Assembly (NCBI GenBank): GCA_002690925.1
Contig: NZGD01000256.1
Location: forward strand, 1-64,000
Reading direction: 5' to 3'
Length of the DNA stretch: 64,000 bases
From: Rhodopirellula sp.
GTDB taxonomy: Bacteria; Planctomycetota; Planctomycetia; Pirellulales; Pirellulaceae
In this document: positions 44,454 to 63,200 of the stretch, piece by piece
How positions within the stretch are numbered: the stretch's first letter is position 1
Layout: every line of letters begins with the position of its first letter
The notes under the pieces: model-generated
What the model was told of the DNA's origin: nothing
Databases searched by the model: none
What the model saw: only the letters and a program-made list of their open reading frames with translations
Translations under genes and position numbers: made by a program

Positions 44454-44456
44454 GGT

Positions 44457-46718
44457 TTATTCTGTTTTTCGATACAGGAAAGAATCTGATGACAACAGCG
44501 CGGCGATCATTGCCTTCATGCTGCCACCCTGTTTGACATACGCCTGGTCGGCTGCCATCAAAGTGGGCGAATCACCCAACGTTTCATTTCGCCCTAACCA
44601 AAAGCGGAACGCGTGGCGGACGAACGACTGGCGAACACGCTCTGATTTCCCCAACCGCTGTACCAGTTCAAACACATCATTCACATCTCCATCTAACTGG
44701 CGATCACCGCTAGCACCGATGTATCCATGAGTGTCAATGTCCGTCGTTGAAGAGTTGCTGTGACGCTCCGGAAAAATGGTCAACAGTTCACCCAACACTT
44801 CTCGTTCCCGGTGTCGACCAAAATCATCAAACTGCTCGAAAGGAAAACCCAGTGGATCCATTTTCTGATGGCACTTCCAACAGTACTCGTCCTTGGTCAC
44901 TCGTAAGCGCTCGCGAAGCGATCGATCTCGGTGTTCCGGAACAATAGCATTGACATCAAGTGGAATGTCAGGAATTGTGTCCGCCAACAGGTGCTCACGA
45001 ATCCACTTACCACGACGAATTGGGTCGTTATCGAAATTTCCACTCCAGGCTATCAACCATGCCGGATGAGTAAGAATACCGGCTCGTTGACCCGCTGGCA
45101 TCTTAAACGGCTGTTCAACCGGATAGTCCCATGTTGTGTGATCGAGATTGTAAAAGTTGACATACTGTCTTGAACTCGGACCCTCGATCGGGATTGGGTG
45201 ACGCCCCGCTGCTTCTGACCGCAGAAGGTACTTGGTATTGAATTCAAAGTTGGCATCATTCTCATTCGTCTTGATGTAATGCAAATCTTTCTGGATGTAA
45301 TCTCGTGATCCAAGATACGCCACAAAGTACTCATCCGTTGTCAACAACTGATTCAAGACATCGCGGTCCCTATCAAAGATATGCATGACCAATTGGTCGG
45401 CATCGTCAACCATTCGTTGAGTCAGATAACGATCACCAAAGCCAATACGCTTTTCATCCTTGAATACATTAGGCGCATGGTGATACCCGAAGAATTCTCG
45501 AAAGAACCTTAGAGTACGCGTATTTCGGATACCATGATCCTGAGTGAACATTCGGTAATCAGCCGTCGACATATTGTTGTTATCAAGTATCTGCACCACA
45601 ACGCGTTCGATGTCTGCTTTTTCGGCAAGCTCGCCACTCAAAGCAAGATTCAGCAAAGTGCCTCTTGTTTCACCGTCTGTGGCAACCACTTCAATTTCAC
45701 TCGGACCTTTATCTGTCAGAGCACGAGCGATCGCAAAGGCCAGTTCAGTTGGAGACAGCCGACGTCGACCGTCTGCATCCTCCGGGCCTAAGCCAATTTC
45801 CATCCGATACACCGCCTCTGGTTTCATCAGAATACCTTGCAGCATTACTTGCAATGCCTTGGTGTTGCCTCCGACTTTCGCCGCATTGCGAAAAAAACTG
45901 GTCAACAACTCGTATTCTGATTCACTCGGCGTACGTTCCAACAACAACTCAAATTCAACGTCAATGGCTGCCCGCACCATCTCATCGGTTGGCCTATCTT
46001 GAGATCCAAGAATAGCCTCAAATTCGGTGGGTGTTCGTTTTGAATTCCTGACTTTGCCTTCGTGATCACGAAACGTCACTCCCTGGGTTTGATAGTCAGC
46101 CAGAGTTCGACAATTCATCATTAGCAATTGCAAGGTGGCCTCACCCGCAAACTGCTGGGCTGAAAAATCTGCGATTTCACCTCGTGATGCATCGAATGCA
46201 AAAGGCTGGTGTATCGCCGTGACATCGCGCAAATGCTGACCGAATCCTTTTAAAAACTCGTCGTAAACGTACGGACTCAAACGCCATAGACGTGGTGGCG
46301 ATGAGGCCGGACCACGATGCGACCCATCAAAAAGCTTTTCGTGGCTAACGTAATTACCAAACTGTGGTGACTTCAGTTTGTGCCGAACGATCGGCGCGTG
46401 ACCAATTTTCTTCAATTGATTGGAAATCCAATCTGTCACCTGTTCAACATCCTTCGCTGACAACTGTAACGAACCCTCTGGTGGCATGGCCCCCAACGTG
46501 ATTTGCTCGTGGACCTGTTGCCACGTTTCAACGAGCTTCTGATCTACCGAATTTGCGTCAGCAAAATCAGTTCGGATATCCTCTAAACACAAAGCCGCAT
46601 CGGGTTCCGATTTTCCGTGACAGCCTGAGCAGTAAGCTTTCAATACTGCCACGACTCCCTCGCTACCATCTACCTCGGCGCACATCGATGACTGGCAGGC
46701 AAAAATAAAAAGGCACAA
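44457..46718 (-). CDS. DUF1592/DUF1588-family planctomycete cytochrome c-like protein (pair 3)
   Basis: 753 aa from TTG 46718. No ATG or GTG gives a complete signal peptide: the hydrophobic region continues upstream (FQLCLFIFACQS) to a stop at about 46754, and the next ATG (46685) would remove it. A TTG or another non-standard start is likely; a small frameshift upstream is possible. YCSGCHG (about 29-35) is the cytochrome c motif. LERTPSESEYELLTSFF, LTHPAWLIAWSG and YCWKCHQKMDPLGFPFEQFDDFG belong to the DUF1595-DUF1588 blocks. It is more diverged than the copies at 196 and 27026. Confidence 0.88.
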   Translation of the reverse strand: MCLFIFACQSSMCAEVDGSEGVVAVLKAYCSGCHGKSEPDAALCLEDIRTDFADANSVDQKLVETWQQVHEQITLGAMPPEGSLQLSAKDVEQVTDWISNQLKKIGHAPIVRHKLKSPQFGNYVSHEKLFDGSHRGPASSPPRLWRLSPYVYDEFLKGFGQHLRDVTAIHQPFAFDASRGEIADFSAQQFAGEATLQLLMMNCRTLADYQTQGVTFRDHEGKVRNSKRTPTEFEAILGSQDRPTDEMVRAAIDVEFELLLERTPSESEYELLTSFFRNAAKVGGNTKALQVMLQGILMKPEAVYRMEIGLGPEDADGRRRLSPTELAFAIARALTDKGPSEIEVVATDGETRGTLLNLALSGELAEKADIERVVVQILDNNNMSTADYRMFTQDHGIRNTRTLRFFREFFGYHHAPNVFKDEKRIGFGDRYLTQRMVDDADQLVMHIFDRDRDVLNQLLTTDEYFVAYLGSRDYIQKDLHYIKTNENDANFEFNTKYLLRSEAAGRHPIPIEGPSSRQYVNFYNLDHTTWDYPVEQPFKMPAGQRAGILTHPAWLIAWSGNFDNDPIRRGKWIREHLLADTIPDIPLDVNAIVPEHRDRSLRERLRVTKDEYCWKCHQKMDPLGFPFEQFDDFGRHREREVLGELLTIFPERHSNSSTTDIDTHGYIGASGDRQLDGDVNDVFELVQRLGKSERVRQSFVRHAFRFWLGRNETLGDSPTLMAADQAYVKQGGSMKAMIAALLSSDSFLYRKTE

Positions 46719-46956
46719 CTGAAATGAAAAACTTCTGATATCGGTTACCCTGTATTACGCACGTGTTCCATCATGCAGCTAAAAAAGATCGCGACGGAGC
46801 CTTGTGAAACGGAATTCCGTGAACCAAAAAACCCTGACTAACAGACCAGGAGCAGAATCAACGGAACAACTCCAAAGATTACCATAACTGCCCAGCGGTC
46901 AACCCTCAACACTGACTCACAATCACAGCTCAACGACATCGCGATTGCATTAGTAC

Positions 46957-48006
46957 ATGTCAAACACCTCTGATCGAACACCGAACGGATACACGGAACT
47001 GTTCGAATGGTTGTTGGGGACTTGCAACAAAGGTGTGCGGGGATTGTATCTTTGTCTGCGAGGCACGGACTATCAGTCATTAGCTGAATTTTCACGCAAC
47101 TTTGGCATCTGCATGAAAACAGTCGCTGATGTAGAGAAGGGTCTGGAACTCTGCATTCGTCCCATGCGTCGCACAGCCATTGGTCGACGCTGGGCAAATG
47201 CAGTCGCAACAGTCCAGCAAGGCGGCACTCTTACAGAAGCTCTCCAACCAGCTCATGAATTTCTCCCTCGCTTCTATCTCCCTCTTGTTGAAGCGGGTGA
47301 ACAATCAGGACGATTGACAGACGTTTTTCAATTTTTGCATGAACACTGTAAAGCGCTTCTTGAACCCTTGGCCAACTTGCGTCGCACATGGCTTTTCCCA
47401 CTTGCTATTTTTTTCGCCGGTTCAGTGCTCCGCATACTCATGTGCTTACTGAGCGGAGATGTGCTTCGGGCAATCCAATTGGGATTCTCGGAAGCCATCG
47501 GCTGGGCTTTTACTGCCCTGATCCTTGGGTTGGTCATGCTAGGTCCAATCCGTTATCCCATCGACAAGATTCGACTTTTTCTGCCTTTTGTTGGTACTTT
47601 GGAACGAGAAATTGCGATGCACCGGTTTTTTCGTGTGATGTCCATGATGTATGCCGTGGGCGAGCACCGAGTCGAATTTATGATTCGTTTGGCAGCAGAA
47701 TCGGTGAACAACCGCGCCGCACGCATGGAACTGGAGAAAGCCGCCGTGGCGATCGAAAACCGGGAAACCATGGCGGAAGCATTCCATAGCGTCACTTTCC
47801 TACCTCCACAGACTCAAACGACGATCAAAACATCAGAAGTTTCGGGAACATTGGAGCGTGGTTTCCGTCAAATTTCAGATGACGCTGGAGCATCGATGGT
47901 GATGAAACTGAAATGGATTCAACCCATTTTGTTCCGCCTTGTCGTCGTGTTGGTAATACTCTCCATACTGTCAACGTTGCTTAAAATCTTAGTGGGGTTC
48001 ATTTGA
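46957..48006 (+). CDS. Orphan GspF/PilC-like type II secretion inner-membrane protein
   Basis: 349 aa. Two GspF-type domains: residues about 45-160 (FSRNFGICMKTVADVEKGLELC, GRRWANAVATVQQGGTLTEALQ, FLPRFYLPLVEAGEQSGRLTDVF) and about 210-330 (HRFFRVMSMMYAVGEHRVEFMI, TIKTSEVSGTLERGF). Three hydrophobic segments at about 150-170, 180-200 and 325-345 match the usual topology. It would sit in the inner membrane of a type II secretion or type IV pilus machine. No GspE, GspG or pilin gene lies beside it. Confidence 0.85.
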   Translation: MSNTSDRTPNGYTELFEWLLGTCNKGVRGLYLCLRGTDYQSLAEFSRNFGICMKTVADVEKGLELCIRPMRRTAIGRRWANAVATVQQGGTLTEALQPAHEFLPRFYLPLVEAGEQSGRLTDVFQFLHEHCKALLEPLANLRRTWLFPLAIFFAGSVLRILMCLLSGDVLRAIQLGFSEAIGWAFTALILGLVMLGPIRYPIDKIRLFLPFVGTLEREIAMHRFFRVMSMMYAVGEHRVEFMIRLAAESVNNRAARMELEKAAVAIENRETMAEAFHSVTFLPPQTQTTIKTSEVSGTLERGFRQISDDAGASMVMKLKWIQPILFRLVVVLVILSILSTLLKILVGFI

Positions 48007-48888
48007 TAATCAAGTCAATCAGGGAATCTCAGTTGTTCAACTACGTCCTGAATTTCTCAGGCCAGCAATGTTAACAACAAGACGTGAAGACACGGGTTAT
48101 CAAACGGGTAACATTGAACCTCAGTGCCGCCTGTAAAGATGGTCACAACAATGGGGTTACTCAGAACCAAGATGAAAAATAACCGAAATTTACTTCGACG
48201 GCGGAAGTGAGTTTTCTTAAGTTGATTATTTTATCTACACCCACGTGACTGCTCGCTTGTCCCAAATCCATGCACTCGCTTATTGAAGCAGCATTGCACA
48301 ATGCCGTTGTCACGCGACCAATCAATGCACGATATCCCCGCATGGACTTCGTCGACTGATTTTGAACTCCGGTTACGGCACAGGACTGACTCAAAAAATC
48401 TGGATACCGATGACCGTATTGTGCCGATCAGAGCGGCACAATGTTTATACAGTCACCAAAACTCCAGCAAATGGCGACCTTAACCCCATGCAAAGCATAT
48501 GAGGCTGCCATCGCCGATGCCCAAAATCCACGATACAAACTCAGCTCACATGTTGACCAATACTTGGATCTGCATATAGGTGCGAACGATAACGGTGAAT
48601 ACTTTGCCACGGAAATGCAGGGCAACCTAATGGTCAATATTCCGGGAATCCAACAATGGCAGTCTCGAAAATCTTGCCAGCGATGACATCGTAAGTACAA
48701 CTGCAACCGACGGTTGTTTGAGCGTTTGGGTGGTCAAGCCGAGAACAATGATCGATTGCCTTCTGTCCACGCGACTCTGCAAGTGTGAGGCACCACCAAG
48801 CGATTCAAAAACTCACACCACTAAAACAGACCTGTGGTATGGAATCCATCTGACGACATGCACCGGCTTACGCGTGGTGCCTATTGCC
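48007..48888. other. Long intergenic region, possible gene remnant
   Basis: About 880 bases between the end of the GspF gene and the end of the exonuclease (convergent). A plus-strand frame around 48480-48660 reads like a folded protein (AYEAAIADAQNPRY, HVDQYLDLHIGANDNGEYFATEMQ) but has no start signal or clear full gene. It may be a remnant. Nothing else seen. Confidence 0.4.
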
Positions 48889-49623
48889 TCAGTTGTGATC
48901 GCCGCCTGCGTTTTCACGCCACGCCAAGGCATTCATGAATGCCTGCCGAGTGTAAGGATTCAGATCTTGCTTCAACATGTATTCCAAGTAGTCACCGGGA
49001 ACCGCTTCCGATTCATCCGTGCTGAACAGGTACTTTCCTCGATGTTTTCCCCACGCGATCTGCTTCGGATGAGTTCGCGCGTGGTGTGAAAAGTTAAAGA
49101 ACTGTCCCCCACTTTTGATTTCCTGCCGCTGAACAATCTGTGTTGCCAATAAATGCAACATCCTGACATCTGCCTCAGCGCTATGCGCATCTTTGGCCAA
49201 ATCCCGTAGCCAGCGTTCATATCCGAACAAATGATAAAGAACTGCCAACTGTTTATGGCAGTCAATCTCTGGCCACAAATACTGAGATATACCCAACGTA
49301 TCGATGCAGCGCACATCACGAGGTGATCCGATCACCTCGTAATCAAAATCGACATTGTGCGCAACAATGAAATCACCAGGCTCCAATGGTATGAAACTGA
49401 CCGCCTCCGCCGATGGTGGGCAGCTCTCCAATTCTTCTGGAAGAATGCCATGCACCACGGTTGCCCCCAGCTTCATTTCCCCTGCTGGTTGATATCTTTG
49501 AACATGTACCACCGGGTCGTTGTTAGGATTGAACAAGGCCCATGCTACCTCGATCACCTCATTAGGATCTCCGCCCGTTGTCTCAGTATCGATCAAATAT
49601 ATCTTGTTCAACGAAACTCCCAA
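48889..49623 (-). CDS. DEDDh 3'-5' exonuclease (ExoX/DnaQ-like)
   Basis: 244 aa. The exonuclease motifs are DTETTG at 12-17 (ExoI), HNVDFDYE at about 89-96 (ExoII) and HSAEADVRML at about 147-156 (ExoIII, DEDDh type). Residues 190-240 add a small domain (IAWGKHRGKYLFSTDES...DYLEYML) like the DUF3820 tail found on ExoX-like proteins. It likely degrades DNA from 3' ends in repair. The next gene upstream is unrelated. Confidence 0.9.
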   Translation of the reverse strand: MGVSLNKIYLIDTETTGGDPNEVIEVAWALFNPNNDPVVHVQRYQPAGEMKLGATVVHGILPEELESCPPSAEAVSFIPLEPGDFIVAHNVDFDYEVIGSPRDVRCIDTLGISQYLWPEIDCHKQLAVLYHLFGYERWLRDLAKDAHSAEADVRMLHLLATQIVQRQEIKSGGQFFNFSHHARTHPKQIAWGKHRGKYLFSTDESEAVPGDYLEYMLKQDLNPYTRQAFMNALAWRENAGGDHN

Positions 49624-49722
49624 TCTTAATAACGGAATGGTTCAACAACACAACAATCATACCAATCCAAAGATACTTCTCGCGTAACTTCGACTGTTCA
49701 ACAAGCGTCACTACGTAAACTC

Positions 49723-51057
49723 TTACCCATCGTAGCGATCATAGTTCGTAGCCGTTGCGTCCCAATCGACTTTTCCCAATACAGAGAACACCATTTCATC
49801 AATCGCTAATCCAATCTCATCGCTAAACCAGCATATTTGCAGACGTGAATAATCACTCGAATCACCCGTGGCCGTCGGATAAGGCGATCCCAAAGTGGCT
49901 TGAAAACGGTAGCGAGGAAGTGGAAATACCCCCGGACGGACAAAAGTAAATCCTCGCGCCGTGCATGCTCTCTTATGTTGGCGCTGTTCAAGATTCACCA
50001 TAATAGTGTGACTGATTGACTCAAGACTTCCCTCCAAATGATTGAGGTAGGTCTGTTCGAAACCAAAATTGTTCAGACTCAATTTTCGGCTTTTGAACAT
50101 CTCTCGCCCTTTCCAAATGGAATCCATAGTTGCTCGATCCATTCGATGACCTGAGTAATCATCGTCATGAAAAAACGACTGTCGCCAGCTAGCGTGATTG
50201 GCCTGCTGTTCCTGCAGCACTGCGAGGGCATGCAAAGCAGTCGTCCGGTGAATATCCAGCACTGGCGAGATGGATCCCTCAGCATCGCGTTGATAACCGC
50301 CTGCGAGATTCCAGGCAATTGGTATTCCTTGGGCTACGAATTGCTCAAAAACAACTCGGTCTCTTTCAGATAATTCTGCACTGTCCAGAACACCACCCAG
50401 CGGATCATCACGATGGGCATCGGCCCCAGCTTGATACAACACAATATCAACGTGCGCAGCGCGCATGGTCTTGATCACTTCATCAAGCCACACAAAATAC
50501 CTCCGAGAGTTGGCAAGACGCTGAAACCCGGAAGAGAAATGCAGAATGGAATCTTGCAGACCCGATTTCCGAATGATTTCATCAGTTCCATCACCAGCAT
50601 GCCAATCACAATCCAGAATTCCAATTTTGTTAATTTCATCACGTTGCAACAGGCGATTGGCTGCAACCATCAATCCATTGAAGGTGCAAAATCCATGATT
50701 AGAAGAATAGCCTGCGTGATGGAAACCGCTTGAGGGTGAACATGCCAAACCTGAATCAAGCGCATCCTCAGCTGCGGCGACCATGGAACCAACCGTCCAT
50801 CGAGTCGATTCAGCCACAGCGGCGTCTGTATTACCATGACCATTGGTAACCTCACCACTGAACACATCCTGCACGTACTCCGGATCATGGACCGTTTGGA
50901 GTTCTTCTATCGAAATAGGATCAAATGCAACCCGTTTGACCAACCTGTGCTGTACCCAATCTTTGTAAACGGAAGCAGGTTTTTCTCCCGAAGGCGAATA
51001 GCCACCTGATGGGCAGGACATACGATCATCGTAAAAAGTGCGTAGAAGATGCTTCAA
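49723..51057 (-). CDS. Histone-deacetylase/AcuC-like enzyme
   Basis: 444 aa from TTG 51057, supported by AAGGG 6 bases upstream and by the family-typical RTFYDDRMSCPS just after; the frame is open to 51237 but looks non-coding. Zinc-hydrolase motifs: FHHAGYSSNHGFCTFN (catalytic His pair), DCDWHAGDGTDE (metal Asp and His), YQAGADAHRDDPLGG (second Asp) and NLAGGYQRD (Tyr). These deacetylate small acyl amines or lysine. Residues after about 310 are an added C-terminal region of roughly 130 aa with no recognised domain. Confidence 0.88.
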   Translation of the reverse strand: MKHLLRTFYDDRMSCPSGGYSPSGEKPASVYKDWVQHRLVKRVAFDPISIEELQTVHDPEYVQDVFSGEVTNGHGNTDAAVAESTRWTVGSMVAAAEDALDSGLACSPSSGFHHAGYSSNHGFCTFNGLMVAANRLLQRDEINKIGILDCDWHAGDGTDEIIRKSGLQDSILHFSSGFQRLANSRRYFVWLDEVIKTMRAAHVDIVLYQAGADAHRDDPLGGVLDSAELSERDRVVFEQFVAQGIPIAWNLAGGYQRDAEGSISPVLDIHRTTALHALAVLQEQQANHASWRQSFFHDDDYSGHRMDRATMDSIWKGREMFKSRKLSLNNFGFEQTYLNHLEGSLESISHTIMVNLEQRQHKRACTARGFTFVRPGVFPLPRYRFQATLGSPYPTATGDSSDYSRLQICWFSDEIGLAIDEMVFSVLGKVDWDATATNYDRYDG

Positions 51058-51495
51058 AAAAGAACCCTTGTGAAAAGACGAAGGAAGAAGATTGTGAGCC
51101 CAGCATGCACCGCAAACAGTGAGATATTGCCAAGCAGGACAAGAGAGCAGCAGAAATCCTGAATGACATACTGTCGCGAGAAACAGTACACTTCTATAGT
51201 CACATTTCAGACCCACTCGGGGCGCGCAAAACCCCATTGATTGTTCATTCCACCATTATCAGTCAAATGAACCGTCCGAATATGAAGCCAGTGCTTTTTC
51301 TGCACACCACTGAGTATTATCACTTAGCTATCTCTGCGCAAATCACGCCATGGGTAACTCACTATCTGGTGCTTCCAGCGCCATGGATCTGAACAATATA
51401 GATGCTGGAACGCGTATGCACTCGGACGCGTTTGTACTCTGTTCTGTGCCGACAAAGACGTTTACCTGCGAGCCTCTGCTGCCGATCGATTCAAC

Positions 51496-51914
51496 GTGAA
51501 GTCCACCCTGAAAAGAAGATTGATTTATGTTGCGGCAACCACAGTATTGCTGCTGCTTGGATTGGGCTCACACTATGCAGAAATTTTTCCTCCGGATTTC
51601 ATCAAGAATTATACCGGGGACGCATGTTGGGCAGCGTGGGCTTACCTGGTGCTAAGTCTCCTCATGCCCCAAAACTGGTACTTCAGCAGGCCATTACTGC
51701 GACCACGTGTGCTTTTACAATCGAGCTGAGTCAACTCGATCACGCCTCATGGATCGATTCGTTACGGCGGATAATGTTGGGTAGATTAGTTCTGGGTTTC
51801 TATTTCACGGCCATTGGACCTCGTTCGTTATACGGTTGGCATTTTGTGTTGTGCCGTGCTCGAATCTGTGCTGAAACCCAATACTCAGATCAATATGCGG
51901 TGATTAGCCAGTAA
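51496..51914 (+). pseudogene. DUF2809 membrane protein gene with a frameshift
   Basis: Two frames together give a complete DUF2809-like protein: the first, from GTG 51496, reads RRLIYVAATTVLLLLGLGSHYAE then YTGDACWAAWAYLVLSLL. After about 51667-51690 a shift to the frame one base back reads TIELSQLDHASWIDSLRRIMLGRLVLGFYFTAIG to the stop at 51914. The first frame ends at 51727-51729. The join lies near the homopolymers CCCCAAAA (51667-51674), where loss of one base is likely. It may be a decayed gene, a strain-specific slip or a sequencing error. Its 3' end overlaps the EutBC gene by 11 bases. Confidence 0.6.
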
Positions 51915-54201
51915 GAGATCGAAGTAAATGCACAGTCTCTTTGGCCGCACGTACTGGCGGCAAAGCAGTCGATGCGATTCCAGAGACGACTTTGGTAATG
52001 TTGTGATCCACTCGTCCACTGCTGCTCCACACCTGACCGTCAGGAGCTGTGATGTAGACAGAAAATGTACGATGGCCTGTCCCGGGACGCTCCCCAATCA
52101 CATGCAATAGTGCTCTTGGTCCCTTGGATTGTGCGAATAGAATTTCGCCAATGTGGTAGCCCGCCCTGACGCGCCCCGAGTTCACGACAATATGATCGGG
52201 TGCCGGTTTGAATTGGTCACGAAGCAACTGTTCCCGCAAGCTTTTAAGGAATGGCTGCAAATGATTCTTCTCCATGATCGACAAAGCGTTGAGTCCATCA
52301 GAGATAACGATCTGTACATTGAATCGGCCATCATGCTTGATACGAAGCCCCTGCACCCTCAAAGCAGATTGCTCTCGCAATTTCTCACCACTCGAGGGAT
52401 GCAAAATGTAGTCATTGCGATCTTCTGATTTGGTATTCAGTGTAATTGACACAGGAATTTCACTTATGAACCCAGGTGTCAATTGTGCCCAAATACTTTT
52501 TTTAGCATCGTTGTAGATGCGATCAACATTTCGTTGAGTAGATTTCGGAAGATCTGAGACTGATGCTCCATGCCCTTCAGTGATGAATACTCCTCTGCTT
52601 CGCACAGACGCAATCTGCTGCTTTGCTTCTCGCCTGATTGCCTGTTCGGGCCGTAGGTCACCTTTGCGTTGCTGATACTGAAAATAGACCCACGTTGGGT
52701 CGCCAAAATGTGCGGTTGGCATCCCTCGTTCGTCGATCACCTTAATCATTCGAAAGAATTCCCACATAGGATCGTTCACACGATAGCCAAACTTCTGCCG
52801 AATGCGCAAATGATCATGATAGCCCGTAGTCAGATAACCAAGCATGGGATCGATCTTGGTTGGTAAAGCCATCAAATATGCGGGATTAGCAGGCATGATT
52901 TGGTCAAGACACCAATCAAGGTCCTGCAAGGAGACCTCCATGTGAAGCGTGGAACAGACGTCAAGTCCAATGGTCAAACCATGTAGTTTTCCCATGACGA
53001 TATCCTCAAGACAGCATCGAACCAATTGCTCCTTGGTTCGGAATACTTCCGGACCGATAAACCCGGCGACGTCATTCAAATGGACCCATGGTTTCAAATC
53101 AGTACCCGACTTGGCTTTCGCTACTTCATATTTCAAAGCCCGAGCAAAACCATACTTTCGTGATTCGTGCACAACCATGTCAAAACCGTTGCCATGACCA
53201 TTTGTAAAATCTGCTCCCTGGCCCGTTTCAAAATAAAGATCAAATTGTCCCTTGCGTTGCCCGGCATAAGCCAACATTTTCTCCACGCTGATATCAAAAG
53301 TTCGGTTGGCACCATCATTACCAGCAATACTCTGGAACCAAAGTGCTGTGCTCCCAGGCTGTCGCTGCTCAACATCAGCCTGTACGTCGATGTGTGACAG
53401 TACACAATGGGGCAGATCAGTCTGCAGTCCGAAGACTTCAATTATCTCCTGCAACGTCCGTTCCACCCCAGCTACCGAATCCAGATCGCTTGATACTGGA
53501 TTGGTTCCCAACAGGACATCACCCACTCCATAAGCCCAGGCGTCAAAAACCTGCCAACGTATATCCTCATGATTATCAGTTGGTGAATTCGGCTGCACAC
53601 GCGCTCCCAAGTAGCCCTTTGCACCAATGTTGCTATTGGGCATCGGGTGAAATATTTTGGAGGCTACCGTGACCAATTCGTCATTACTCATTAATTTCAC
53701 AACGCAACCAATCACGACGCTGGACAGAGAAGGAAGCACCGCCTTGATTGATACCTCATCGTGTTCAAGAAGAAATTGTTTCAATTGCCCAAGCGTTTGG
53801 CTTTGATTCGTTGGGTGTTCACCACGTACGACTGTCTGTTTCAGCAGTTGAGACAAACGATCCTGCGTAATGGGATGGTCATCTACATCAGACAAGATGG
53901 TATTTGACAACAACTGACGCGCAATGCCCCGAGCAGCGTCATTGGTAGCCGCCACCCCAAGTGCCGCGTCCCCCTCTTTAAAAGGATTAGCTGCCCCAAT
54001 GATGTTCCGGTAGGCGTTCTCATCAAATCCCAACTGCACACGATTCAAGTATTCAAAGATACCTTCACCAACCTGCGCGTTTACCAAACTGACAGTCTTC
54101 TCCTGTGGTTCAAATGCAGTCAGAGGCTGTGCAAAGGTCCCAAGAGCGGCCACACCACCAAGACTTCCCGCCTGCGTAAACTGCCGTCTGCTGATTCTCA
54201 T
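51904..54201 (-). CDS. eutBC: Tat-exported ethanolamine ammonia-lyase, EutB-EutC fusion
   Basis: 765 aa from ATG 54201 (MRISRR), with GAGAGGG upstream. N-terminus: a twin-arginine signal SRRQFTQAG plus a hydrophobic stretch to about residue 30. About residues 38-500 match EutB: IIGAANPFKEGDAALGVAA, RVQPNSPTDN, LLGTNPV, LYFETGQGADF and TIGLDVCSTLHME. The residues that in E. coli EutB contact substrate (Arg160, Gln162, Asn193, Glu287, Asp362) appear kept by motif. The rest (about 585-765) matches EutC: SDGLNALSIMEKN, GRVRAGYHIGEILFA and IGERPGTGHRTFS. The reaction is adenosylcobalamin-dependent cleavage of ethanolamine to acetaldehyde and ammonia. Fusion of both subunits and a Tat signal are unusual. 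Confidence 0.88.
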   Translation of the reverse strand: MRISRRQFTQAGSLGGVAALGTFAQPLTAFEPQEKTVSLVNAQVGEGIFEYLNRVQLGFDENAYRNIIGAANPFKEGDAALGVAATNDAARGIARQLLSNTILSDVDDHPITQDRLSQLLKQTVVRGEHPTNQSQTLGQLKQFLLEHDEVSIKAVLPSLSSVVIGCVVKLMSNDELVTVASKIFHPMPNSNIGAKGYLGARVQPNSPTDNHEDIRWQVFDAWAYGVGDVLLGTNPVSSDLDSVAGVERTLQEIIEVFGLQTDLPHCVLSHIDVQADVEQRQPGSTALWFQSIAGNDGANRTFDISVEKMLAYAGQRKGQFDLYFETGQGADFTNGHGNGFDMVVHESRKYGFARALKYEVAKAKSGTDLKPWVHLNDVAGFIGPEVFRTKEQLVRCCLEDIVMGKLHGLTIGLDVCSTLHMEVSLQDLDWCLDQIMPANPAYLMALPTKIDPMLGYLTTGYHDHLRIRQKFGYRVNDPMWEFFRMIKVIDERGMPTAHFGDPTWVYFQYQQRKGDLRPEQAIRREAKQQIASVRSRGVFITEGHGASVSDLPKSTQRNVDRIYNDAKKSIWAQLTPGFISEIPVSITLNTKSEDRNDYILHPSSGEKLREQSALRVQGLRIKHDGRFNVQIVISDGLNALSIMEKNHLQPFLKSLREQLLRDQFKPAPDHIVVNSGRVRAGYHIGEILFAQSKGPRALLHVIGERPGTGHRTFSVYITAPDGQVWSSSGRVDHNITKVVSGIASTALPPVRAAKETVHLLRSLTG

Positions 54202-54370
54202 CATGTGCCCTCTCAACATCTTGAATGCACCCCATTTAACCAGGGGCGCTGAACCTATCCACGACTCACTTTTCCAAAACAGACTACTTCTACCTTCGAC
54301 CCCATCAGTCAGGCGTAACAGGACACATCGCCATGCACCCTAGATTTACGCTCACTGGTTTTCAAACCCT

Positions 54371-54775
54371 TTACGCATCTCCTAAAGGATACACCTTATA
54401 ACCAGCCTCGGATAACGTTTTAAGAGTCAGTGGCCACTGTGCACTTTTGATCAGCAAATAATCTGTCTCATAGGTGGAGACTGCAAATACGCTGATGTGA
54501 GCATCTGCCAGATACTTTGTAATCTTGGCGAGAATCCCCACCAAAGAGAAATCAAGTTTTCCAGCGACTCGCATGCAAATCCAATCAGGCTCAGATTTTA
54601 CATTGTCTGGCACGAGAGACTCACGACACACAACGGAAAGTTCATCAGGTGTCCAGGTCAACGACACAAACTGCTGCTTACCGATATCATTTTGCAGCGC
54701 CCACTGGGGTAGCGACTCATCAGCTGCAAGACGACAAACTGCATAGCGATCCGGTAAAAACTCAAAACTGAACAT
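54371..54775 (-). CDS. ACT-domain protein
   Basis: 134 aa, soluble. Residues about 75-130 are an ACT domain (GKLDFSLVGILAKITKYLADAHISVFAVSTYETDYLLIK), preceded by a related N-terminal half (FSFEFLPDRYAVCRLAADESLPQW, SLTWTPDELSVVC), so it resembles the two-ACT regulatory proteins that bind amino acids. Its start codon overlaps the stop of the upstream gene (TGATG), so the two are translationally coupled. It may sense an amino acid, perhaps linked to the nearby threonine synthase-like enzyme or EutBC, but this is inference. Confidence 0.85.
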   Translation of the reverse strand: MFSFEFLPDRYAVCRLAADESLPQWALQNDIGKQQFVSLTWTPDELSVVCRESLVPDNVKSEPDWICMRVAGKLDFSLVGILAKITKYLADAHISVFAVSTYETDYLLIKSAQWPLTLKTLSEAGYKVYPLGDA

Positions 54776-55272
54776 CAGTTACTGTCTTGACGCTCTTTGT
54801 CGGCAGGAACAATTTTTGTCTCCAAGAATTTTGTCAGAGCGACCGCATCATCAGTACCAATCCTGATTTTTCGACCTTGTCTATACCAAACATCCACACA
54901 GTCATATCCCCACAAATTCCAAACCCAACCTCCACTCGGACTTACATGAATACCCCAACCGTCCAATATCGTTGATTTGGCTTGCTCGACTCTCTCGAGT
55001 TCACTGTACTGTAAACGGCGCTTGAATAATGTCAAAGGTCCGAAAGCAATCAACAACTCAGCGCCCTGATCACTTACCGTCAAATCACGAAAACACAAAG
55101 CAAGAAGCAACATCAAAGCACCGCTACTGTACATGGCTACCTGCGCGACAACCACATTTGTCAAAGCAGATCCAGCTAGCGTACCGACCCCGATAAACAG
55201 CAGTAACAGATAGGTAGGGGCAGACTGCCTGTGGTCATAGAGCATGAAAGACTCGCCGGTGTATTCCAACAA
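54775..55272 (-). CDS. Small membrane protein, PH-like
   Basis: 165 aa. Two hydrophobic segments (about 21-38 and 43-63) anchor the protein. The soluble part (about 65-150) has a PH-like strand pattern (CFRDLTVSDQGAELLIAFGPLTLFKRRLQYSELERVEQ, then WGYDCVDVWYRQGRKIRIGTDD), as in bacterial PH-domain membrane proteins. Overlaps the ACT gene (TGATG). Function unknown; the coupling suggests a shared role. Confidence 0.65.
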   Translation of the reverse strand: MLEYTGESFMLYDHRQSAPTYLLLLFIGVGTLAGSALTNVVVAQVAMYSSGALMLLLALCFRDLTVSDQGAELLIAFGPLTLFKRRLQYSELERVEQAKSTILDGWGIHVSPSGGWVWNLWGYDCVDVWYRQGRKIRIGTDDAVALTKFLETKIVPADKERQDSN

Positions 55273-55626
55273 AATTCCAGAATTGTTCTGTTACCGCATA
55301 ATCTAACAGACACTCAGTCGACATTGAAAGAAACGGACACTTAAATAACGAGCATCGGCACGTTACCCAACAACACATTTTTGAAAGGTGAACAATTAAA
55401 GACAGATTCTTTTCCCCAACTACCAGTGATTGACCGAATTTTAGATTCATTGAGGCTCGGATTTCCCAGCATGATCTCCATGGAAATCCTACGCATTCAC
55501 TTTCCTGTCTTTCAGCTGAATTCCCACCGTGGGAGAAGCAGAGTAATCTACTGCGAAAGAAAGTTCCAAAGTACCATCCCTCAATTCACATTTCTGCTTC
55601 TCCCCCTGTTAGACGGTATTTTCGCA
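55273..55626. other. Divergent intergenic region
   Basis: About 350 bases between the membrane-protein gene (minus) and the HATPase-GNAT gene (plus). The plus frame is open from 55381, but its product before 55627 is low-complexity and lacks a domain, so I read it as a leader. Promoters for both sides belong here. Confidence 0.45.
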
Positions 55627-57087
55627 ATGGAAATGGAATTACGCCTATCCAATGATTCGCCTTTGCTTTCCAGCGTTCAGGCCTTCATTCGCTCTACCCT
55701 CAATGAAGTTGGACTTCCTGAGCCAACGGTTACCGGGCTTGAGCAGTTAGTAAGTGAAGTGATTATTCACACTGTCGATCACGCCTATCCCCATGGAGAA
55801 CAAGGCGCGATCATCGTCAAAGTCACTGAGTCGATGGGTAAATTTGAACTCACGATCTGCGACGATGGTGTACCACAAGATATTCAGCGACTAGAGACAG
55901 AGCTAATCCAAGGTCCAATCAACCTGCCTGGCTTACGAAATGCACTCGATACAGGAATCCTAGATGAAGTCCACTGGACAGCCTTGGGTCCGAACGGGAA
56001 GGCTCTGCACTTGATCAAGTGGCTTCACGACAAGTCGGTCCATGAGGGTGACTCAAAACCCGCCAGTCAAGATGAGCCACTGGCGCCTACACAAGAATAC
56101 GATGTTCGCAGATCGCGTCCCGAAGAAGCGTTACAAATTTCACAGCTGATTTACCGAATTTACGGCAATACATACTTCAACGAAGACCTGTACTACCCTG
56201 AACGAGTTGCTGCTCAGCACGCGAATGGCAAAGTGCTATCGATTGTTGCTACAGACAGAGACGGCTATCTGGCGGGTCACTGTGCGTTGGAATTTAATGA
56301 TGCAGGTCCGGTTGCAGAAGTCGGTCAAGCGGCGGTTGATCCCCGCCATCGTGGCAGAGGTCTGCTGAACCAAATGAAGGGTGCGTTGGATAAGGAAGCT
56401 CAGGATATAGGGCTAGCAGGCTGGTATGCTGATTCCGTGACGGTCCATATCTACACTCAAAAATCAAATGCCCACCATGGAGGCCACATCTGTGGCGTGG
56501 GTTTAGGAGTCTCACCAAAGAATGAGTCCTTTGCGGGAATCGCTGAGGAACTCTCACAACGTGTTAGCTGTGTGATTTATTTTCATTGGGTCACAGAGCC
56601 TGCAGAACGGGAAGTTTTCATTCCAGAGCGACATCAACAAATCGTCTCTGAGATCTACGAAAACCTCGGATGCCCTATTCGATTTGGTACTGCTTCGCCT
56701 AGTCATCAGGCACATGGAACACTTTCCATCAAGGTAAACCCTCGGGCACATTTTGCCGCAATCCATATAACAACGCTTGGTCAGGATACTGTCCAAAGTA
56801 TACGGCGGGCTGCGAGAGAACTTGTCGAACTCTCGCATGTGGAAGCTCTCGTTGTGGAGTTACCACTGGAAAACCCTGGCACCCCAGATGCGTGTGAAGC
56901 ATTGGAGCAACATGGTTTTGGATTCACCGGCATTGGACCGCACTTCACGACAAATGGTGATGTGATCAAACTAGAATACCTGATAGAGCCACTGGAAAAG
57001 CAGCCCATTAAATTATTCGAGCCATTCGCCGAGCGTTTGGTCGACTATGCTTTGGACGAGCAGAAACGCGTTCGTGAATCCATGTGA
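55627..57087 (+). CDS. HATPase-GNAT fusion protein
   Basis: 486 aa from ATG 55627. Residues about 1-135 match an RsbW-like anti-sigma/histidine-kinase ATPase (LEQLVSEVIIHTVDHAYPHGEQGAIIVKV, then FELTICDDGVPQD). In the N-box E-x-x-x-N-x-x-x-H-A-Y the Asn that holds Mg appears as His (EVIIHTVDHAY), which would weaken or abolish ATP binding. Residues about 155-330 form a GNAT domain (VRRSRPEEALQISQLIYRIYG, GQAAVDPRHRGRGLLNQMKG, the pyrophosphate loop RHRGRG). The last about 150 residues hold a beta/alpha region without assignment. It may sense or acylate; the target is unknown. Confidence 0.75.
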   Translation: MEMELRLSNDSPLLSSVQAFIRSTLNEVGLPEPTVTGLEQLVSEVIIHTVDHAYPHGEQGAIIVKVTESMGKFELTICDDGVPQDIQRLETELIQGPINLPGLRNALDTGILDEVHWTALGPNGKALHLIKWLHDKSVHEGDSKPASQDEPLAPTQEYDVRRSRPEEALQISQLIYRIYGNTYFNEDLYYPERVAAQHANGKVLSIVATDRDGYLAGHCALEFNDAGPVAEVGQAAVDPRHRGRGLLNQMKGALDKEAQDIGLAGWYADSVTVHIYTQKSNAHHGGHICGVGLGVSPKNESFAGIAEELSQRVSCVIYFHWVTEPAEREVFIPERHQQIVSEIYENLGCPIRFGTASPSHQAHGTLSIKVNPRAHFAAIHITTLGQDTVQSIRRAARELVELSHVEALVVELPLENPGTPDACEALEQHGFGFTGIGPHFTTNGDVIKLEYLIEPLEKQPIKLFEPFAERLVDYALDEQKRVRESM

Positions 57088-57199
57088 GAAGCCGTGTATT
57101 ATCAACTTGAATCTCATACTGTTGTCTTACCAGCAGCACGTGCAGTCATCATGAACCGGCAAACAGATCTGTAAACTTGGCAACCTCAAAAACTTGACG

Positions 57200-58426
57200 A
57201 TGCAAAACACAAACACTGACCGACCAACTTTTGTCACACACCTGGAATGCGGTAAGACAGAAACACATTATGCAGCTGACCAGTTGCATGGATTGTCTGA
57301 AGTTGGAAGCCCCCTCATCGTACGATACGATTTGCAGGGAATATCCAAAGCGCTCAGTAAAGACGAACTCCAATCACGCCCGGCAGACCTCTGGCGATAC
57401 AGGGAATTTCTACCAGTCCGCCAGACCAACAACATTGTGAGCCTCGGAGAGATCATGACGCCCTTGATCGAACTTGCCAGTTTGCAAGCTGGTCAAGGAC
57501 GTTTGATCGTTAAAGATGAGGGTCGATTACCCACGGGCTCATTCAAAGCACGTGGGCTCTGCATGGCTGTTTCGATGGCTAAGGAACTTGGCGTGACAAA
57601 ACTAGCTATGCCAACCAATGGCAATGCTGGAGCGGCCATGGCTGCTTACGCCAGCCGCGCAGGTATGGAAACCTACGTTTTTTGCCCAGATGACACACCA
57701 GAAATCAACGTGCGAGAAATCGCTGCACAGGGCGCAAAGGTATGGCGAGTCAATGGCCTGATTAACGACTGCGGCAAGCTGGTCGGAGCTGGAAAAGAGA
57801 TCCACCAATGGTTCGACTGTTCCACACTCAAAGAACCGTATCGAATCGAAGGTAAGAAAACGATGGGTCTGGAATTGGCAGACCAATTCAACTGGGAACT
57901 TCCTGACGTGATTTTCTATCCCACTGGTGGAGGCACTGGATTGATCGGGATGTGGAAAGCATTTCAGGAACTCCAGGCAATGGGTTGGATCAACGGCCGT
58001 TTACCACGGATGGTTGCCGTGCAGGCAACTGGTTGTGCTCCCATTGTAAAAGCCTATGACGAGCAGAAGCAGTACGCCGAACTGTGGCAGGATGCACACA
58101 CTGTTGCTGCTGGAATTCGTGTTCCGGCGGCTATCGGTGATTTTCTGATTCTCAATGCAGTACGTGAAAGTGATGGATTTGCGACAGCTGTAACCGATGA
58201 GGCAATTCTATTTGCCCGGGATGAGGCTTCCAAAAAAGAAGGAATGCTGATGTGTCCAGAAGGAGCTGCAACGCTCGCAGCCTATCAACAGGAATTGGAA
58301 TCAGGAAGAATCTCAGCTGATGAGACTTGCGTTCTATTCAACTGTGCCTCAGGCCTGAAATACCCTTTGCCGGCAATGAATGCACGCATCGATTTGAAAG
58401 AGACGATTGATTTTGAGTCTCTCTAG
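57200..58426 (+). CDS. thrC: Threonine synthase-like PLP enzyme
   Basis: 408 aa from ATG 57200 (a TTG at 57194 is two codons upstream). Fold-type II PLP enzyme: the Schiff-base Lys is in GSFKARG (about residue 117), the phosphate-binding glycines in PTGGGTGLIG (about 240), with a CNG-like loop PTNGNAGAAMAAYA and MCPEGAATLAA near the end. The N-terminal THLECGKTETHYAADQLHGL resembles the Zn-ribbon-like start of threonine synthases but with only one Cys pair. It would make threonine from phosphohomoserine, or be a relative acting on another amino acid. It follows the HATPase-GNAT gene by 112 bases. Confidence 0.85.
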   Translation: MQNTNTDRPTFVTHLECGKTETHYAADQLHGLSEVGSPLIVRYDLQGISKALSKDELQSRPADLWRYREFLPVRQTNNIVSLGEIMTPLIELASLQAGQGRLIVKDEGRLPTGSFKARGLCMAVSMAKELGVTKLAMPTNGNAGAAMAAYASRAGMETYVFCPDDTPEINVREIAAQGAKVWRVNGLINDCGKLVGAGKEIHQWFDCSTLKEPYRIEGKKTMGLELADQFNWELPDVIFYPTGGGTGLIGMWKAFQELQAMGWINGRLPRMVAVQATGCAPIVKAYDEQKQYAELWQDAHTVAAGIRVPAAIGDFLILNAVRESDGFATAVTDEAILFARDEASKKEGMLMCPEGAATLAAYQQELESGRISADETCVLFNCASGLKYPLPAMNARIDLKETIDFESL

Positions 58427-58578
58427 TCAAAGAGCCGAATCCCAGCCAAGGCCAGTTTGATTTCCAGGAACAGCCCGTAAAATTTTACTGGCGTTTTAGA
58501 ATCACTCCATAATTTTCACCGTTCACGACGGTGCATGAGTGGGATTGAATTGCCAACACATCCTCCCTTGAACATCCC

Positions 58579-60033
58579 ATGATTTTTCCGTTCATCTTCG
58601 TAGCCACATTGCTGGTGCTAGGCATTGGATTGCGACTCAGGTTCGCAATTTTCCGCTGGTTGTATATCCCTGCTTCAGTTCTGGCAGGAATGATTGGTTT
58701 ACTGATCATCCAAGTTGACTTCAGTGTGACATTGACATCACATACCACTGCTTGGTCTGAAACGCTCAAGAGTTGGCCCGGATTCCTGATCGCCGTGATC
58801 TTCGCTGGAATGTTGCTGGAACGTGAACCGGCACCTTGGCGAAAAAGCATTTCACGTGTTGGACGGCAGGGTCTGATGGTGTGGGTCATCGTGCTAGGAG
58901 AAACCGCCATCGGACTGATCGCGACCTTGCTGTTGATCAAACCGTTTTTTGATGTACCTCATTCGTTTGGCACACTCATCGAAACTGGTTTTGCGGGTGG
59001 GCACGGTACTGCTGCTGCCATGGGCCAAGTTTTCAACCATCCAACGATACAATTAGATAATGGGTTGGATCTTGGAATTCTGATGGCCACATGCGGACTG
59101 CTCTACGGATTGATTTCAGGTATTTTCTGGATCAACGTCGCCGTGAGGAGAGGGTGGATTAAAAAGCAAAAATCCAAATCCGAAAACGTTGTCAATGCAG
59201 GATATCGCCCTGAAAACTCTCCCTCTTGTACGCCAGCAACCCGCCCCATGCTCGGCTATGCACGAATTGGTAAGGAGACGATTGATCCATTGCTATTTCA
59301 AGTGCTATGGTTGGCGATCGCCTTTGGTATTGGCCTTGGGCTTCAAAGTCTTGTGACCTCATTCGTGGGATTCATCGAAGCTTTTGGGGATGCAACCAAT
59401 ACAATCGTCAAGGGTGGAGAACAACTATCAGAGCGACTGACACTCGAAAGTATTGCTGGCAGCTTTCCTCTGTTCATCTACACACTGTTCGGTGGATGGA
59501 TCGTACGCGTCATGCTGAGTTTGCTCGGCTATGAAAACGCCATCGATCGAGACACTATCAATCGGCTGACATCGACAGCAATGGATGTTTTGATTGTCGC
59601 TGCTATCACCACATTGAACATCACCGCAGTGAGCACCTTGATTGTACCGTTCACTATCCTGTTTCTCTTTGGTGCCGCGTGGACGGGATTCTGCCTCATG
59701 GTTCTGGCGCGAAAAATGTTACCGCCCGAGCACTGGTTCGAATTGGGACTGATCAACTACGGCATGTCGACCGGCACCACGGCAACCGGTTTCGTGCTGC
59801 TGCGATTAGTCGACCCGGAACTAGAATCAGGTGCTGCAGAAGATTATGCGTTAGCAGCCCCCCTTTCTTCGCCGTTCATCGGTGGAGGTATGATCACAGT
59901 AGCGATGCCACTACTGGTCTTGGAGCGAGTACCGCTTCCTGTCACAACGATCACCGTCGCCCTACTCGTTGCGATTCTGATTTGGATCGGCCAACAATGG
60001 AATCGACGTACAATTATCAAGTCGGAAACTTGA
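58579..60033 (+). CDS. gltS: Sodium/glutamate symporter (GltS family)
   Basis: 484 aa integral membrane protein. About ten to twelve hydrophobic segments span the sequence; the hallmark GFAGGHGTAAAMG (about 137-149) matches the GltS signature, and TTATGFVLLRLVDPELESGAAEDYA is a second family block. A longer loop (about 200-225) is hydrophilic. It imports glutamate or a similar amino acid with sodium. It is same-strand with the threonine synthase-like gene (152-base gap), so amino-acid uptake and use may be linked. Confidence 0.88.
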   Translation: MIFPFIFVATLLVLGIGLRLRFAIFRWLYIPASVLAGMIGLLIIQVDFSVTLTSHTTAWSETLKSWPGFLIAVIFAGMLLEREPAPWRKSISRVGRQGLMVWVIVLGETAIGLIATLLLIKPFFDVPHSFGTLIETGFAGGHGTAAAMGQVFNHPTIQLDNGLDLGILMATCGLLYGLISGIFWINVAVRRGWIKKQKSKSENVVNAGYRPENSPSCTPATRPMLGYARIGKETIDPLLFQVLWLAIAFGIGLGLQSLVTSFVGFIEAFGDATNTIVKGGEQLSERLTLESIAGSFPLFIYTLFGGWIVRVMLSLLGYENAIDRDTINRLTSTAMDVLIVAAITTLNITAVSTLIVPFTILFLFGAAWTGFCLMVLARKMLPPEHWFELGLINYGMSTGTTATGFVLLRLVDPELESGAAEDYALAAPLSSPFIGGGMITVAMPLLVLERVPLPVTTITVALLVAILIWIGQQWNRRTIIKSET

Positions 60034-60226
60034 TGCAATGACTAGCCAAAGCGACAATACTTCCCGATGAGCAGGTTGTGGTCAACGTGCCATCCATTCG
60101 CGGTCGACCCAGATTCAATATAAGATCGGGCAGCCTCGAACACCAAACCCTGTAATGATTTGGTCGCAACCATAAAAAGACAATGTTTGGGTTAGCAACG
60201 CTTCCAGCATCAATAACTCACTCTTT

Positions 60227-63200
60227 TCATTCTTCTTCCCCCAAGTAACTGACATCAAGTTCGCTGAACACATCATCCAGATGATTGGAAGCCAGCGCCT
60301 TGGTCTGCGATTCCCCCATCGCACCACCGAATACGGCATCAGCAGACAATGAACTTAGTGATGGAAGCCTAGAGGCATCTGAGGACGATGCATCTTCAAA
60401 CGCCGGAAGCGTTCCCTCTGCATCCCAATCTCGATCCTCGAGACATCGGCCAAAGCGTCGCCTCTGATCAAAATCAAATCCGCGGCTCACTGCAGAGGGT
60501 GCAAGAGCCGCCTCTTCCGGTACCTGCTCCCCAAATTCTCCTTCCATGACAGCAATCGATCGTATTGCGTTTAGCACAACAAGTGCGTCAAGCGTGGATA
60601 CTTGGCCATCAGCATTGACATCTGTCAACGTGATCTCTTCGTTAGCAGCAGCTGAGAACTCCCCAGTTACAAAACCTGAACTGATGTTGTTGATGACCAG
60701 CAAAGCATCCAAAGCTGTGACAAACCCGTCAAGATTCGTATCAGCCGCCAAGGCATGGTTGTGGTTGATAATCGTGAGCGAATCGCCAGGTGTAGCATTC
60801 AAAGGAATGCCAGCATTTTCGTCAACTCGTTCAATACGAATGGCATCAAAAACGACGCGTTTACCATCAATTCCAATATTGTTGATCTCAACACGGAGTG
60901 GTTGTGAAGAATCGGAATAGTCAAAACCGACAACAGCATCGATCCAGACAGATCCCCGATCTTCATAGTGATCAGCATAGTCTGATGGATGAATCAGTTG
61001 ATTAAGGTAAGAAGTTTCCTGCACGGATGCGTCCGAAACGATGAAGGGAACATCCGAAGCTGCACGGCTATAAGGTGCCCATGTAACACCGATGTTGTAT
61101 CGCCCCGGGTCCAGCCCATCCAAAACCCAAGCACCAGTCGTTGCAATACGGTCAGTCGTAGCCAGTTTAATCGTATTTTCGTGCCAACCACGCCGATCAC
61201 TGGAGAGTTTGACCATCATCCCGGTCTGTTCAAATCGGACATCTCGGTCATCAAGTATCAACGCGTCGCTGAGAACTTCACCTTTCAAGGCTAACTTGAT
61301 GATTGGATTATGGGGGTCACTTGTTGCGAAGGCAAACGTCCCCTCAAAACCCCCCACCGCCTCGGCTTTCTGACGAATCATCAAGTCGAGGGCTTCACCT
61401 TCATCGAGATAGCTGGGCTCAAAATTAACGACCTCAAATCCGACTGGCACTTGACGCAACGATTCAACAAGCAGTGGCATTGATGAGTGGTTGATGATCT
61501 GAACTACTTCGTGTGTCGCCGTACCATGAGTTGCCTGTCCAAAATCGATCAAGTGGCCAGACTTAATATCCGATCCACCATATGACATACCAACACGTGG
61601 CTGATGAATCCGTTGTAATCGCACGGCATCTGCCACGACAGACCTTCTGTCATCAATATCAGTCAACGTTACAGTTAGCATCTCCTCAGCAATGTAAACA
61701 TCAGTCAACAGTTCCCAAGGTGACTGACTGCCCTGTAGATCATCCGGTTTACTTCGTTGATCAATTAGGGTTCGTATCGCCGTATCGCCACTGATGACGT
61801 CATATTGCGCTACACTTGAATGACTGCTTCGGTCTACCCAAGTCGAGTAAACGGAATACCACCCTGATTCCATATCATCAAATGTCCAGATTGCCTGACT
61901 ACCCGTCTGCCGACTACCGCTGACGGCATAGGTTTCTGCCTGTGCACCTGAATGTCGCCGGTTTGAAAACTTTCCGACCTGAACATAATTTTCTGAAGAC
62001 ACTCCATAGCGATCACCATTATCGAGTTTAAACTCACTCATCACAGTTCCGTGCAAATCGATCGAGATCACGCCGCTTTCGGCGTTATCAGTCTGCATCA
62101 GAAGCGTACCATTGGCTGCACCGATGGTCTGAGCATCAAAACGCACTTTCAAGTCAAGCGAATCACCAGGGCTGACGGTGACAGGATATTTAAGTGGCGC
62201 GCTGGTTAATGTAAAGCCCGAAGAGACGAAAGGCACATCAAGCAGGACGAGGTCCTCCAAACCATCATTGTGAAAACGCAGACTACGCGTCACTGTCTTC
62301 ATCAATTGCGTCTGGCCAAAACTGACATTCCCCAAGAAAGGATCTATTTCTGCCGCTGACGAACTTTCACCCGCTTCCAATAAGCTCAAATCAATTATGC
62401 GCAATTCTGAGATGGGTTCCAGTGAGTCAGAATCCAAGGGCTCCAATCGAAGGGCATCAATATAGGATTGACCATTTTCAGTACTGTTAATGGTGACTGT
62501 CAAATCACCATCAGCGCTCACCGTAACACGCTCGAATAACGTTACCCAATCAACTCCAACCTCATGGAAGTAGTCCTCCTTGTCAGCTGGACGCAACTGT
62601 TGATTCACAATCTTGGATTGAGTGCCACAAGAACCTTCGATTTCACAATCTGCTGAATGGGTCGTCTTGACCGCAAATGGAACATCCGGTGCTGCGTTAC
62701 GGGGATTTCCATACCATGTTGCCGCTATACGATAAACACCTGCATCCAAATCATCCCATATCCACGCGACCTGATGCGTTCCACGGTTAGACAATCTGGT
62801 CTCGTAACCACCCAGGGCTTTCCGTTGTCTGGTGAAGGAGGCCCTACCCTCCGTAACCGAGAAATACTCGGAAGGCTTGCTTCTACTACCGTTGTCGGCA
62901 TAAATGACATCTTCGATCGATCGATCGACTCTACCACTAAGATCAACTTTGAAGATCGACTCATCGACATCATTGGTTTCGAAAGCCAAGGTGCCTCGAT
63001 AAGCTCCAGGCTGTGGCCCCACAAGCTCAAGTCTCAAAGTAGTTGAATCGCCAGGTGCTACGTGCTGACCACCTAAAAAGCTTGCCTGATAACCCACTGG
63101 CACCGAAACATTCCCCAGGCGGTTCAAAACCGCACCAGTTTCCGAATCATAGCGATAAGGCAGGTCGGTAGCTGTTTCGTTAAGATTGAGTATCAAACTC

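Follow-up and report, generated by a model that had tools for sequence, protein, structure and literature searches.

Enzymes that depend on adenosylcobalamin (AdoCbl) are, to our knowledge, regarded as cytoplasmic, since the coenzyme is made there and is easily damaged. Can one of them work outside the cytoplasm? The question is raised by a gene in a stretch of Rhodopirellula sp. DNA (assembly GCA_002690925.1, contig NZGD01000256.1, positions 1 to 64,000 of the forward strand), the whole 64,000 nucleotides of which are called the window here. The gene encodes the EutB and EutC subunits of ethanolamine ammonia-lyase in one chain, behind a signal of the twin-arginine translocation (Tat) type. 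The best reading of the locus, and a rather probable one in our judgement, is a fused AdoCbl-dependent ethanolamine ammonia-lyase that would be loaded in the cytoplasm, exported through Tat and split ethanolamine outside. An earlier sequence-only reading of this DNA had proposed such an exported lyase; that interpretation is plausible and, taken as a whole, partly supported by the evidence below.

The gene is a single open reading frame (ORF) without internal stop, so the large and small chains are not separate (Table 1). Position 51904 is the last base of its TAA stop codon and 54201 the A of its ATG. A second ATG (54204) lies just before this start and is preceded by the Shine-Dalgarno-like GAGAGGG; the protein may begin with MMRIS, and the Tat signal is present with either ATG. 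Pfam places EutB at residues 64–496 (438.5 bits, cut-off 25) and EutC at residues 549–762 (106.8 bits, cut-off 25.8), which bears out the claim that both subunits lie in one chain. The NCBIfam EutB subfamily model also recognizes the protein (570.8 against 554). The NCBIfam EutC equivalog cut-off is not reached (81.6 against 230), and for that reason the EutC part is not filed as an ordinary EutC. A phmmer search of the PDB returned 2qez (Listeria EutB), 3abo_A and the E. coli light chain. The AlphaFold2 model, made with 23 sequences, has a predicted local distance difference test score (pLDDT) of 83.2 and a predicted template modelling (TM) score of 0.84, with pLDDT below 50 for residues 1–33. 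The structural comparison with EutBC that had been proposed as a check came out positive: Foldseek matched the model to both E. coli chains, separately (3abo_A, E 1.8e-27, TM 0.86 by target length; 3abo_B, E 1.4e-10, TM 0.70 by target length), followed by diol and glycerol dehydratases. The one EutB match and the one EutC match in the window genome both fall within the fused gene, whose GC content and GC content at third codon positions resemble those of five neighbouring genes.

The draft assembly of the window genome comprises 314 contigs and has a contamination value of 7.84, and a misassembly or mis-called start might have joined two genes and added a chance signal. Recurrence refutes an assembly accident, which retains practically no probability: 153 distinct relatives were collected, more than 52% identical, and 146 of them extend into EutC. 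The fused gene is found in named isolates (Archangium, Algoriphagus) and single-contig genomes, and the window gene order is common to close relatives within the genus. The fusion is a recurring clade (fus1) rather than a one-off, with members mainly in Planctomycetota, Myxococcota, Bacteroidota and Gemmatimonadota. Named genome contigs yielded 23 relatives in a scan that used the window protein's own peptides and is thus biased toward the fused type; 22 run into EutC, and one (L023; L and G numbers are our handles for loci and genomes) ends with its contig after residue 250. These 23 come from metagenome-assembled genomes of Rhodopirellula and Rubripirellula, other Planctomycetota, Archangium, Algoriphagus, further Bacteroidota, Gemmatimonadota (one of them Longimicrobiales) and one Geobacteraceae. 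Within the window's family, EutB of any type was detected in 70 of 241 genomes, and of 392 sampled across the phylum 30 have it; the counts are 85 of 145 for the order to which Archangium belongs and 97 of 390 (96 above cut-off) for that of Algoriphagus, where separate chains prevail. A quick-method tree of the EutB part, from which L003, L023 and L032 were omitted, places fus1, a second fusion type (fus2) and the separate-chain enzymes in one group each, with a very long branch leading to fus1.

The sequence-only reading had named loss of Arg160, Gln162, Asn193, Glu287 or Asp362 (E. coli EutB numbering) as a finding that would overturn it. All five are intact, aligning with R201, Q203, N234, E325 and D414 of the window protein. 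Of the 99 clade members with a signal, all retain the first four and 98 retain Asp362, the remaining one having a gap there; the five are likewise intact wherever aligned in the 52 unsignalled members (gaps: one at E287, two at D362). V326, F329, M392, L402, F258 and S247, which we take to line the pocket, are unchanged in 70 of 71 sequences, with a gap in the other. On the EutC side, G168, L169, R206, V207, G227–G231 (G227-E-R-P-G231) and Y241 are common to 69 of 69 sequences, while D167 is found in 62 and replaced by E in 7. Differences from E. coli that are fixed in the clade comprise S292A, S295T, V327A and C361L in EutB (70/71, one gap) and S170N and N261G in EutC (69/69).

Another substrate is conceivable given these fixed differences, which lie close to the active site in sequence: an exported AdoCbl lyase with the same chemistry might act on another small amino alcohol or a vicinal compound. 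The very long branch from separate-chain EutB, the 30–35% identity to E. coli EutB (71 sequences; 32% for the window protein) and the EutC equivalog score point the same way. On the other side, the five substrate residues, like the other positions checked, are identical to those of the separate-chain enzymes, and we consider a different substrate unlikely, though it deserves to be kept in mind. Far less probable is an exported cobalamin-binding protein, a scavenger or store that has lost lyase activity. Export of a corrinoid protein would suit uptake, and no downstream aldehyde genes of the E. coli type lie nearby, but selection for binding alone would not be expected to keep the substrate residues unchanged over 99 signal-bearing sequences. 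Two papers give Glu287 a catalytic role (PMC8473560, PMC4413051).

The Tat signal claimed for the window protein is borne out by an S-R-R-x-F motif followed by a hydrophobic stretch, and it is kept in most planctomycete members. Our guess places cleavage after LTA. Residues 1–40 contain no cysteine, and the lipobox of a Tat lipoprotein is accordingly absent. Tat signals were called by a motif rule of our own and by reading rather than by a trained signal predictor. A first version of the rule picked out 59 of 71 fused homologues against 1 of 21 separate-chain or fus2 proteins and 20 of 181 neighbouring genes; the neighbours were scanned over 80 residues from the first start, and some of those picked out resemble genuine Tat proteins. 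A chance signal was rejected on these counts. On reading, L012 stood wrongly among the 59; a second version, which requires a minimum distance, drops it and misses L225, Tat on reading. The search for further Tat-EutBC fusions in Planctomycetes that had been suggested earlier gave, by this second rule, 67 of 76 members with a Tat signal (7 with a lipobox), 7 without and 2 cut, besides members in other phyla. Among the seven rule-negative starts, L050 and L212 are cut at contig ends, L225 is Tat-like (TRRRLLQTGIALGSL), and L020, L120, L222 and L227 are signal-less on reading, so that 68 of 72 uncut planctomycete starts carry a signal. Tat signals were also found in 24 of 62 Myxococcota, a lipobox accompanying 21 of them, and in 1 of 6 Gemmatimonadota, and 7 of 8 Bacteroidota have R-K or R-N before x-F together with a lipobox.

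On a FastTree tree of 142 of the 153 clade rows (cut or partial rows excluded), 96 are signalled, counting the RK/RN type, 45 unsignalled and one Sec-like; signal presence changes 5 times, against a mean of about 38 when shuffled. Among myxobacterial genomes with two fused copies, 12 of 13 have one copy that resembles a Tat lipoprotein and one without a signal, while both copies are signalled in G655. These are 13 of 14 such genomes; the fourteenth, G669, has one copy unfetched. In G706 the signalled copy (L187) had been merged with a duplicate when the census was made and was read from its own sequence, and some myxobacterial fused matches (for example G743, G744 and G670–G672) stand outside the counts. 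TatC is present in the window genome (195.7 bits).

In two genomes a Tat-signalled superoxide dismutase gene lies upstream of the Tat-EutBC gene, at 3 bases (L021:5177-6133; L021 is the same contig as L049) and 32 bases (L084:5811-6692). The assignment was made by Pfam on the L021 protein, to which the L084 protein is 71% identical. Such neighbours, the signal in nearly all uncut planctomycete starts, the lipobox in 21 of the 24 signalled myxobacterial copies and the signalled/unsignalled pairs within one genome all argue against an unused Tat-like N-terminus, or a protein held on the inner face, which would leave the enzyme cytoplasmic like other ethanolamine ammonia-lyases. Unsignalled members occur within the same clade, and cofactor supply and reactivation are cytoplasmic; even so, we judge a cytoplasmic location improbable.

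A PduO-type cobalamin adenosyltransferase is present in the window genome, where the reactivase EutA was not found. According to a review, EutA strips damaged cofactor in an ATP-requiring process (PMC5821096). Among the 30 genomes tested, near full-length EutA occurs only in G053 and G081, beside fus2. The sequence-only reading had remarked on the lack of eut companions nearby. This stood for positions 44001 to 64000, the part of the window searched, where E. coli eut genes other than eutB and eutC have no match. The missing reactivase, in turn, was rejected as a special mark: all 8 tested planctomycete genomes whose EutB is a separate chain likewise have no match above the cut-off.

The same lack extends over the clade. 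In tblastn searches of 81 clade loci, only eutB and eutC were found with E. coli eutA, H, G, E, D, T, J, K, L, M and N and with five planctomycete or Bacteroidota permease, EutH and EutA queries. The loci total 950,859 bases, are partly redundant and include some very short contigs; the independent places number fewer than 81, as some loci are counted twice (for example L001/L077, L002/L066, L004/L076, L005/L073, L018/L090 and L008/L187). The same queries detected EutH and EutA in 4 of 4 fus2 loci (three genomes), and EutH in 4 of 4 loci of a third fusion type (fus3). Of five separate-chain loci, which had supplied two of the queries, four gave an amino-acid-type permease; the fifth (L095) has a major facilitator superfamily gene. 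Permeases were sought over all loci by these queries. Their absence fits an enzyme that would meet its substrate outside. Pfam likewise revealed no eut gene among 20 selected clade neighbours, 9 window neighbours and one small overlapping frame, or among 6 myxobacterial and 2 Bacteroidota neighbours; the transport matches among scanned neighbours were OpuAC/BPD transport (L071), AI-2E transport (L086) and the symporter-like gene of the window (Table 1).

Further window neighbours include a pyridoxal phosphate-enzyme gene (Pfam) and, at 44457-46718, a planctomycete-type protein with PSCyt3, PSD2, PSD4 and PSD5 domains. A pyrroloquinoline quinone (PQQ)-propeller gene lies upstream of Tat-EutBC in the same direction in five genomes belonging to one planctomycete group (L053, L054, L055/L072, L081, L082), at 9 bases in L081 and L082 and 34 in L072; its N-terminus resembles a Sec signal on reading. 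Near the EutBC locus of L084, positions 11167-11287 match a Group II intron domain (Rfam RF02001).

Table 1. Coordinates of the fused gene, its parts and neighbouring genes (window positions unless a locus is given).
Feature	Position	Strand	Remarks
Fused Tat-EutB-EutC coding sequence	51904..54201	-	765 aa + stop; ATG at 54204 would add one Met
Tat-type signal, residues 1-29	54115..54201	-	SRRQF at residues 4-8; from homologues and low pLDDT
EutB domain, residues 64-496	52714..54012	-	Pfam
Inter-domain stretch, residues 497-548	52558..52713	-	From Pfam limits
EutC domain, residues 549-762	51916..52557	-	Pfam
Histone-deacetylase-like gene	49723-51237		Window neighbour, Pfam
ACT-domain gene	54371-54775		Window neighbour, Pfam
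Sodium/glutamate-symporter-like gene	58579-60033		Window neighbour, Pfam
PQQ-propeller gene	L082:4747-6234		Upstream of Tat-EutBC
PQQ-propeller gene	L081:8274-9761		Upstream of Tat-EutBC
PQQ-propeller gene	L072:7852-9516		Upstream of Tat-EutBC

How might an exported ethanolamine ammonia-lyase work? From sequence we infer its translocation, cofactor loading, substrate, site of reaction and the fate of its products. With the two subunits joined, the cofactor site between them would form within one folded unit, and both halves of the cobalamin site would be placed on one exported chain under one signal. The protein would fold and bind AdoCbl in the cytoplasm and then pass the Tat pore; since Tat carries folded proteins, the cofactor-bearing enzyme would leave loaded. 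It would act in the periplasm of planctomycetes and, in myxobacteria, at the membrane as a Tat lipoprotein. There, ethanolamine, for example from degraded phosphatidylethanolamine, would be split into acetaldehyde and ammonia, both of which can cross membranes and could diffuse into the cell. A reaction outside would remove the need for an ethanolamine permease and keep the aldehyde out of the cytoplasm.

Several observations weigh against this reading. Predicted export varies within the clade: 45 of the 142 members in the tree are without a signal, which implies that the enzyme can fulfil its role without being exported. On reading, the start of the Geobacteraceae protein resembles a Sec signal and not a Tat one, and the RK/RN-lipobox signals of Bacteroidota could belong either to a variant of Tat or to Sec lipoproteins. 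Unsignalled members are also without the permeases sought, so the absence of these does not prove export. No operon is conserved, as clustering of neighbours over the clade found nothing in common beyond close synteny or small groups, and Rfam detected no cobalamin riboswitch, either in the window or among 11 scanned loci. A self-inactivating radical enzyme would be short-lived in a periplasm without ATP for a reactivase. EutA-profile matches formally above the cut-off (26–27 bits) do occur in three genomes, two of Archangium and one of Algoriphagus; they cover 62–64 of 475 positions and were not accepted as EutA, and a match in G345 is weaker still.

If the lyase is exported, its cofactor must be in place on departure and the enzyme must last without reactivation; questions of quality control before transport and of cofactor retention in the fused enzyme then arise. 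It would also allow ethanolamine use without a permease or microcompartment. We are evenly divided on the broader proposal that fus1 is a clade of AdoCbl radical enzymes working outside the cytoplasm, in which a single-chain lyase would be loaded with B12 before Tat transport and act without reactivase in the periplasm or at the membrane, some myxobacteria keeping an exported and a cytoplasmic form side by side. Those myxobacterial pairs offer a built-in comparison of signalled and unsignalled enzymes in one cell.

We found no description of an exported ethanolamine ammonia-lyase in the accessible parts of the literature searched (including PMC5821096, PMC3306737 and PMC2667541), which lies mostly outside subscription journals. 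The nearest known system is E. coli EutB/EutC (3abo, EC 4.3.1.7), with which the window protein shares both domains, the five substrate residues, the EutC motifs and the fold of each chain. Unlike it, the window protein is one chain with a Tat signal in front and 32% identity in EutB, and its gene has no eut companions in 44001-64000 and no EutA in its genome.

Two other fusions have the same one-chain form. The unsignalled planctomycete fusion fus2 has the same EutB-EutC order but is 28–29% identical to the window protein and, in the loci with fetched flanks, adjoins EutH and EutA. Five of five fus2 proteins (L064/L210, L069, L070, L111, L115) have Ala instead of Asp362, and given Ala at this substrate-binding position fus2 may act on a different substrate. 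The Bacteroidota fusion fus3 (L206–L209) has the substrate residues intact in four of four proteins; it differs in being unsignalled, 37–38% identical to the window protein and encoded directly after EutH. Beside the five full fusions of fus2 and the four of fus3, the census rows of these groups (12 and 6) contain EutC frames standing alone and a fragment.

Respiratory reductive dehalogenases (RdhA) are an unrelated family, with Fe-S clusters and without adenosyl radical chemistry. They share with the window protein a twin-arginine signal on a corrinoid enzyme and, as two articles describe them, provide a precedent for export with the cofactor in place (PMC4918011, PMC6737245).

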